From assembly GCF_029688865.1 (NCBI RefSeq), contig NZ_JARUKV010000001.1, positions 186,001 to 250,000 of the forward strand: a DNA stretch of 64,000 bases, written 5' to 3'. Shown piece by piece: positions 50,590 through 52,030 of this stretch. How positions within the stretch are numbered: position 1 is the first letter of the stretch; the number at the start of each line of letters is the position of its first letter. Source of the DNA: Natronococcus sp. A-GB7. GTDB lineage: Archaea; Halobacteriota; Halobacteria; Halobacteriales; Natrialbaceae. The position numbers and the translations under genes were made by a program. Under the pieces are notes generated by a model. It had not been told where the DNA came from and made no database searches. It worked only from the letters and a program-made list of their open reading frames with translations.

Positions 50590-51903
50590 TCACTCGACGG
50601 GACCGCCGCGGACGGAGAGAGTTACCGATCCGTCGGCCCTGTCCGGAATCTGCACCTCGACTTCGACCGACCGATCGCGGTCGTCGGGTTCAACCTCGAG
50701 CGTCCGTCGCTCGCCGTCGACCTCGAGCCAGTACGCGCCCGGCTCGCTCGCCTCGACGACGACCGTCGCCGGAACGGTCGTTCCCGGGAGGAGTCGGTCG
50801 TCGAACGTCACCGACTCGAGCTCGAGGGTCGCGCCCTCGAGATCGACCTCGAGGTCGGTCTCGAACGAGGTCGTGTAGACCGAAACGTCCCGATCGTCCT
50901 CGTCGTCGTCCCCGCCACCGTTGCCGTCGTCCGGCTCCTCGAGCAGGATCTCGACACCCAGTTCTCGCTCGACGTTCCCGATCCGGTTGCAGATCGTCTG
51001 CTGGGCCGAACCGGCAAAGAGGAGGCCGACGAGCTGGCCGTCCTCGAGAAAGACCGGCGACCCACTGTCCCCGCCCTCGGACATGTAGCCCGTGATCAGC
51101 TGGTCACGCAGGGTGACGGTTCCCTGTTCCGGACCGAACTCGACGTCGACGCTCGCGCTCGTCGCCTCGACCGTCGCGCTGGTGACGCCGGTCGTCCGTC
51201 CGGTTTTCGTCACCGTCTCCCCGCGGAGTTGCCCGTAGCCGTCGCGGCGAACACCGGTCGGCCACTCCGGGTCGAGTTCGTAGTACCGATCGGACTCCCG
51301 CTCCCGATCGACGGATCTGGCGGCGACGTCGACGCGGACCCCGTCCGCGATCGGAACGTAGCCGACGAGGTCGCCGACTGCGTCGTCGGGACCGCCGTCG
51401 TCGCGAGGTGCGGGCTGGCGAATCGGTTCGCCAGGGTCTGCCTCGTTCGAGCGCGCGTAGACGTGGTTGTTGGACAGCCGAACGAGATCGCCCGGCTCGG
51501 CGGCGTCACTCCAGACGGCGTCGCTGTCGGCGTCGTCTGCCACTCGTGCGGGATAGGGACCGCCGGTGCCGGCCGTCAGCTCTGCGTTGCTCTCGCTGAC
51601 GCCGGCCGGAATCGGACGGTGGCGGTCGTTTCGTCCCGCCGCGGCCTCGGGAACCACCTCGAGCGTCGCTAGCGGATCGAACCCCTGCCGTTCCTCGCCG
51701 TAGCCGGCGTCGACGACGTCGACGGTGATGTCCGCGTCGCCGACCTCGTGGATCCGTTTCTCGACGTCGTCCTTGTCCTCGAGGGAGCTGGGTGGCTCCT
51801 TCTGTGAGACGAACACCCGAACCTCGTTTTCGCTCTCGTCGTAATCGACGCCGATCACGTTCTTGCACTCGAGCAGGTACTCGAAATCCTGTGTTGTAGG
51901 CAT
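50590..51903 (-). CDS. chymotrypsin-fold serine protease-like protein without signal peptide
   Basis: 437 residues. The first 85 residues form a small alpha-beta domain (LECKNVIGVDYDESENEVRV). The protease domain has H147 in VRLSNNHVYA, a likely D192 in VRVDVAARS and S280 in EGGDSGSPVF, so the triad looks complete. An Asp-rich linker (330-340) leads to a C-terminal beta-sandwich of about 95 residues. No signal peptide or lipobox is present and the start is well placed after a TATA-like caacacattcg region. The layout resembles NAL1-type/plain S1 peptidases. Target unknown. Confidence 0.75.
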   Translation of the reverse strand: MPTTQDFEYLLECKNVIGVDYDESENEVRVFVSQKEPPSSLEDKDDVEKRIHEVGDADITVDVVDAGYGEERQGFDPLATLEVVPEAAAGRNDRHRPIPAGVSESNAELTAGTGGPYPARVADDADSDAVWSDAAEPGDLVRLSNNHVYARSNEADPGEPIRQPAPRDDGGPDDAVGDLVGYVPIADGVRVDVAARSVDRERESDRYYELDPEWPTGVRRDGYGQLRGETVTKTGRTTGVTSATVEATSASVDVEFGPEQGTVTLRDQLITGYMSEGGDSGSPVFLEDGQLVGLLFAGSAQQTICNRIGNVERELGVEILLEEPDDGNGGGDDDEDDRDVSVYTTSFETDLEVDLEGATLELESVTFDDRLLPGTTVPATVVVEASEPGAYWLEVDGERRTLEVEPDDRDRSVEVEVQIPDRADGSVTLSVRGGPVE

Positions 51904-52030
51904 AATTTGAATCTACAACACATTCGTACTGAACTATCTTAGATGTGTGGCTGTCTCTCGCATTCTGGGACGCCCGTTTCAGCCCCACTTATGAGGACAG
52001 GGCGAATTCCTTCGGATAGGTGGCCACCAG

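Follow-up and report, generated by a model that had tools for sequence, protein, structure and literature searches.

Why would a haloarchaeon encode a trypsin-fold enzyme that has a complete serine-protease triad and no export signal, and what would make such an enzyme safe inside the cell? The question is raised by a 437-aa open reading frame in the 64,000-nucleotide stretch of Natronococcus sp. A-GB7 DNA analysed here (the window). The original prediction had correctly delimited the frame at 50590..51903; it lies on the minus strand, with its start ATG at 51903 and its stop codon at 50590-50592. The gene is single-copy in its own genome, the sole further match being a 42-residue stretch at E 0.1, and it encodes a strongly acidic protein (100 D/E vs 36 K/R) with two cysteines only, C13 and C305. 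From its match to the proteases of PHROG 20754 and from its fold, we identify the product as a NAL1-like trypsin-fold peptidase, a family on which the original prediction was silent, as it was on the strand and on the large size of the family. We consider it likely that the gene specifies a cytoplasmic NAL1-like serine endopeptidase that cuts selected intracellular proteins and is kept in check by its assembly and by narrow substrate recognition.

A distant relative of rice NAL1

A structure model built from a 51-row alignment of relatives (A3) reached a mean pLDDT of 85.1 and a pTM of 0.73, residues 329-354 being the sole segment below 50; a model from a shallow alignment of four near-identical rows (A1, pLDDT 37.5) was set aside in its favour. 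The N-terminal alpha-beta domain and the C-terminal beta-sandwich that had been proposed from the sequence are both present in the model. The former, of NAL1_N type, occupies residues 1-72 (51688..51903, minus strand) with the elements H4-12, E16-22, E27-32, H47-54 and E60-65. A chymotrypsin-fold protease domain follows (residues 96-320; 50944..51618, minus strand), and an acidic, mostly low-confidence linker (residues 321-341; 50881..50943, minus strand) leads to the six-stranded C-terminal sandwich (residues 342-437; 50593..50880, minus strand), whose strands span 360-435.

When the model was compared with the PDB by Foldseek, the best 33 matches were all rice NAL1 (top E 1.2e-13), followed by streptogrisin B. 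VIA-align superimposed model residues 1 to 328 on NAL1 (Z 25.1, 291 residues, 3.6 A, ~20% identity); streptogrisins and alpha-lytic protease followed with Z ~19-20 over residues 96/98-322, and HtrA/Deg proteins with Z ~13-15. The trypsin fold of the original prediction is therefore borne out, the model matching NAL1 and the streptogrisins across the whole protease domain. Among the fold matches NAL1 is the one that covers the N-terminal domain too, from residue 1 onwards; for the C-terminal sandwich we report no NAL1 counterpart, residues beyond 326 being barely probed by the fold library used. The rice NAL1 entries concerned are 7y77, 8has, 8hat, 8hau, 8pm*, 8pn1 and 8pn2; according to the PDB listings the NAL1 sequences are present in 3, 6, 9 or 12 chains, often 6, and the titles include 'open' and 'close'. 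NAL1 stands for NARROW LEAF 1, a rice leaf-width protein encoded by a rice yield gene.

The same relationship emerges from sequence profiles. The A3 profile picks up the NAL1 chains with an E of 1.1e-14. There are two matching stretches, one running through the N-terminal part as far as the histidine motif TNRHV and the other taking in the KxGR...GDSGS part, so that the histidine motif and the KxGR...GDSGS motifs are common to both proteins. The protein also matches PHROG 20754, annotated 'protease', at E 3.9e-30 (residues 8-320 on positions 17-318 of the 324-position profile). NAL1_N exceeds its Pfam cut-off in one relative (L029, 34.1 vs 27) and is found at E<=1e-3 in 20 of the 51 A3 rows. 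For the window protein itself, Pfam gives Trypsin_2 and Nal1_C under their cut-offs (Nal1_C 15.6 vs 26.1 bits) and does not report NAL1_N; as these cut-offs are unreached, we class the protein as a distant NAL1 relative and not as NAL1 itself, with the understanding that a Pfam cut-off is a library threshold and no biological feature. The arrangement by which we recognise a NAL1-like protein, a trypsin-fold domain immediately preceded by one of NAL1_N type, is found both in the model and in the two-stretch profile match. By sequence and model, then, the protein is a prokaryotic NAL1-like peptidase, one member of a large family and a distant relative of rice NAL1. An archaeal protein missed by standard family cut-offs is thereby tied to solved NAL1 structures, and what had been a trypsin-fold enzyme without a signal becomes a well-defined protein that can be put to the test and whose fold partner is known. 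One further Pfam candidate, PCC_BT, was returned for the C-terminal part at E 0.17 only and is taken as a chance match.

Other known proteases share less with the protein. Streptogrisins and alpha-lytic protease are secreted bacterial S1 proteases with pro-regions and disulfides; they resemble it in the fold of the protease domain (Z ~20) and in the KxG...GGDSG motif region, but the window protein has an unrelated N-terminal domain, which aligns with NAL1 where a streptogrisin would have its pro-region, no signal peptide and only its two cysteines. HtrA/Deg proteins share the trypsin-type fold and the triad positions, whereas the window protein lacks the export signal of that group and ends in a beta-sandwich, there being no PDZ among its Pfam matches. 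The PHROG 20754 proteases, which include the relatives on viral contigs and, through one of them (L057), an Aeropyrum coil-shaped virus protein, have the same two-domain core; the window protein differs in being chromosomal and in carrying the C-terminal sandwich, and no named phage matched it directly. Among the matches listed, a literature search on NAL1 structures or prokaryotic NAL1 gave no such paper, and one on haloarchaeal serine proteases gave nothing relevant. Intracellular trypsin-like proteins in conflict systems are reportedly the topic of some papers; when the window protein was searched against the PADLOC defence models, no family matched at E<=0.01.

Distribution and chromosomal setting

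The family is patchily distributed. A class-wide search found a match in 36 of 292 genomes at E 1e-3, and the A3 profile likewise in 36 of 292 at E 1e-5, the two sets not being exactly identical; in its own family of archaea the gene is present in about 21 of ~75 sampled genomes (E 3e-99 level, counted by hand). Where present, its place is rather constant. A phosphoribosyltransferase gene (PF00156; 52031..52726, plus strand) is its divergent neighbour across a shared intergenic region of 127 bp (51904..52030, assigned to neither strand). The two genes adjoin in 21 of the 23 genomes whose match is at least as strong as E 3e-99, and they are divergent and 127-191 bp apart in all 24 loci for which both were in hand, a set that includes the window itself and apparently one contig twice. 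The phosphoribosyltransferase gene is found in 277 of 292 genomes, with or without the protease, and it thus serves as a landmark of the locus and not as proof of joint function. In one genome (G052, L120:1426-1716) a protease remnant of ~29 residues in a disrupted frame lies beside the phosphoribosyltransferase gene, a decayed copy indicating that the gene can be lost.

Within 51904-52030, good conservation across the 24 loci marks a block around the core CCCACTTATG; it lies on the phosphoribosyltransferase side of the gap and looks like an archaeal promoter of that gene. A sigma-70 promoter and terminator scan, whose model is unsuited to archaea, gave no sites. The phosphoribosyltransferase was also considered as a functional partner of the protease, and this is left unproven, the gene being near-ubiquitous and the conserved block lying on its side.

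Viral relatives

With the window protein alone as query, neither tblastn against plasmids and phages nor a scan of viral contigs gave a match; the same viral scan with a 32-row haloarchaeal alignment (A2) as query showed that at least 80 viral contigs encode a relative. One of these, L057, is matched at E 7e-20 by ORF 25-326 of the Aeropyrum coil-shaped virus, a 'putative serine protease'. In a quick, midpoint-rooted tree, the 23 Natrialbaceae-type rows form one clade (support 99), and a 28-row clade (support 99) holds these rows together with three viral ones, L035, L036 and L037. All three of these nearest viral relatives sit in terminase/portal modules: L035 (292-5281) has the order terminase, portal, protease; in L036 (3980-7401) the terminase lies downstream of the protease; and in L037 (508-6070) a portal gene precedes the protease and a head morphogenesis gene directly follows it. 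Elsewhere in the tree, L040 (2188-5093) too has a terminase downstream. To judge from gene order, the protease in these four contigs occupies the place in which one would look for a head maturation protease.

It is conceivable that the chromosomal gene stems from a NAL1-like head-assembly protease of haloarchaeal tailed viruses, or was exchanged with one, and that its product now has the task of either processing a host protein or interfering with related viruses, a scenario compatible with an active cytoplasmic protease. In the well-supported 28-row clade, all three viral members have terminase, portal or head morphogenesis genes around them, which makes such a domestication possible. We nonetheless regard it as unlikely, as no viral genes flank the window locus, where the gene keeps its fixed place beside the phosphoribosyltransferase gene. 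Moreover, of 150 listed proteins flanking the viral relatives, 131 were compared, drawn from 38 of 40 loci; no more than 5 of them belong with the main terminase family, and canonical head maturation proteases occur among them as well. In Hardycor1, the named virus whose portal is nearest to that of L035 (34%), it is MuF that follows the portal. Being midpoint-rooted, the tree gives no direction of transfer.

A broader and still more doubtful proposal would be that NAL1-like proteases form a chymotrypsin-fold class of head-module enzymes in archaeal tailed viruses, that a haloarchaeal lineage domesticated one for regulatory use in the cytoplasm and added the beta-sandwich, and that rice NAL1, the haloarchaeal enzymes and the viral ones share a mechanism in which the N-terminal domain restrains a streptogrisin-type site until assembly or substrate opens it. 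If the link to viral head modules were true, a chymotrypsin-fold protease would take part in archaeal tailed-virus assembly; for specialists, this virus-head context of the nearest viral relatives and the tie to plant NAL1 are the parts of most concern.

The active site

The reading of the protein as an active cytoplasmic NAL1-like endopeptidase depends on an intact active site. The original prediction had named H147, D192 and S280 as the catalytic triad, and both positions and motifs are correct, in the order His-Asp-Ser: H147 lies in LSNNHVY (codon 51463..51465), D192 in RVDVAAR (codon 51328..51330) and S280 in the GDSGS loop of GGDSGSP (codon 51064..51066), all on the minus strand, the last being also covered by the match of the A3 profile to NAL1. 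All 32 rows of A2, which is haloarchaeal, and all 51 of A3, which comes mostly from viral contigs, carry the three residues and the GDSGS loop without exception. A2 omits the window itself (L004), L005, which is not a family member, L006, an apparent duplicate of L002, and weaker class-wide matches for which no locus was obtained. A3 took 47 of 53 selected viral sequences and left out six (L097, L079, L091, L086, L095 and L108), the selection having beforehand dropped L076 and L090 with their large insertions, L105, matches that were partial and copies that were identical. Its 51/51 count therefore applies to full-length, alignable rows.

Of the three histidines in the protein, H147 alone is invariant. 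D168 and S103 are invariant as well, so conservation alone cannot single out D192; it is picked out as the catalytic aspartate because a profile-profile alignment of A2 with three HtrA-type proteins from the same genome (A5; L115-L117) pairs it with D154, next to the pairs H147-H124 and S280-S232 (probability 70, E 4e-5), the corresponding motifs being NNH147V/TNEH124V, VD192VAA/SD154LAV and GDS280GS/GNS232GG. The deeper A3 profile confirmed the serine part only against A5. The protein thus has an intact His-Asp-Ser active site in a trypsin fold, by motif and alignment, from which catalysis itself is predicted.

Could the trypsin fold merely bind partners, cleavage having been lost? The proteolytic activity of the prokaryotic members is a prediction from sequence, and non-proteolytic trypsin-fold proteins exist, MamO reportedly being one. 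Pseudoenzymes usually lose catalytic residues, however, and the invariance of the triad and of GDSGS in every row of both alignments makes this scenario improbable. The pattern of selection argues in the same direction: dN/dS was estimated for eight pairs and came to 0.11-0.28 for the protease domain against 0.35-0.73 for the C-terminal domain; the C-terminal value exceeds that of the protease domain in 8 of 8 pairs, and the protease domain is lowest in most pairs. The reading frame is, by these estimates, under purifying selection that is strongest in the protease domain.

Two viral relatives (L076:2636-4717 and L090:2525-4603) are interrupted at the catalytic-histidine motif (SNNHVLAA / LNNH) by intein-like insertions, recognised by eye, whose first residue is Cys and whose last is Asn before Ser or Cys.

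Cellular location

The absence of a Sec, Tat or lipobox signal, already claimed for the window protein, extends to its close relatives. Across 26 sequences (L001-L004 and L006-L027; L004 stands for the window, and L002 and L006 seem to be one contig), that is, the protein and 25 close relatives, there is neither an RR motif nor a lipobox in the first 45 residues, and the peak 12-residue hydropathy within the N-terminal 60 residues is 0.5-1.2; for the window protein, the top 12-residue Kyte-Doolittle mean in this segment is 0.58. The more distant rows L028-L034 are less clear, 4 of 7 having an RR pair within the first 45 residues and hydropathy reaching 1.78. As a positive control, the other three Trypsin_2 proteins of the genome all have a twin-arginine signal. 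That of L115 is at residue 30, with a hydropathy of 2.18; that of L116 is at residue 31, with 1.97, and a lipobox is present too; L117 has a STRRGVLKQLTIGGVLSVAG stretch. An upstream start that would add a signal peptide was also sought, and an in-frame stop is reached before any further start codon. Since the signal is absent and the three other trypsin-fold proteins of the genome bear one, a cytoplasmic location is the best inference, and the protein is probably cytoplasmic. That it works outside the cell all the same, exported by another route or from a start that was wrongly assigned, as might be imagined from its relatives by the protease domain alone (the secreted streptogrisins and alpha-lytic protease), is highly improbable given the upstream stop, the lack of a hydrophobic stretch in close relatives and an N-terminus that is a conserved NAL1_N-type domain from residue 4, 97% identical to that of L001.

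Flanking domains and control

If the protein is a cytoplasmic endopeptidase, its activity must be reconciled with life inside the cell, and the original prediction had suggested that the flanking domains give the control. While its triad, trypsin fold, missing signal and flanking domains all stand, control by both flanks is unsupported as stated. The sandwich is missing from one relative (L022, 335 aa) and other sequence takes its place in distant haloarchaeal rows, so it is unlikely to be an essential switch. In the viral relative L035, residues 347-410 match phrog_11214, which suggests that the C-terminal domain there may have been swapped for another. Taken with the dN/dS values, the comparisons mark the C-terminal sandwich as a fast-evolving, dispensable accessory and the N-terminal domain plus protease as the conserved unit. 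The sandwich, which is lineage-specific and held on an acidic linker, would probably be an optional module for binding or localisation. Of the two flanks, the N-terminal domain is the better candidate for control, a role suggested by analogy with rice NAL1.

In the scenario that we favour, the enzyme would have one specific intracellular substrate, or a few, as opposed to digesting protein in bulk, and would be made safe in the cytoplasm by narrow substrate recognition combined with assembly through the N-terminal domain, as may hold for rice NAL1. The best reading is a cytoplasmic regulatory protease, whose substrate and control we infer. According to a study in maize, ZmNAL1a acts inside cells, the purified protein degrades a TOPLESS-like corepressor, and this degradation is inhibited in extracts by PMSF (PMC12915138). 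Intracellular action, as described in that study for ZmNAL1a and indicated for the window protein by signal absence, is a further likeness. The corepressor substrates are plant proteins, however, and rice NAL1 is only ~20% identical to the archaeal protein, so function need not carry over. The patchy distribution of the gene and the unreached Pfam cut-offs likewise count against the reading. How NAL1-type activity is controlled inside cells is a question for which this compact archaeal version could serve.

Some relatives show other combinations of domains. The HVO_A0114 family was found, with an E of 2.3e-10, in one A3 row, suspected to be L035:4001-5281, and a viral contig encodes an 883-aa protein (L066:3773-6421) in which a NAL1-like protease is fused to a long C-terminal part. 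A haloarchaeal protein of 1100 aa (L119:1627-4926, G166:C45) opens with the NAL1-like domain pair and continues into a long later region that reads, by eye, as tail/baseplate-like; the same genome, G166, also has an ordinary copy.
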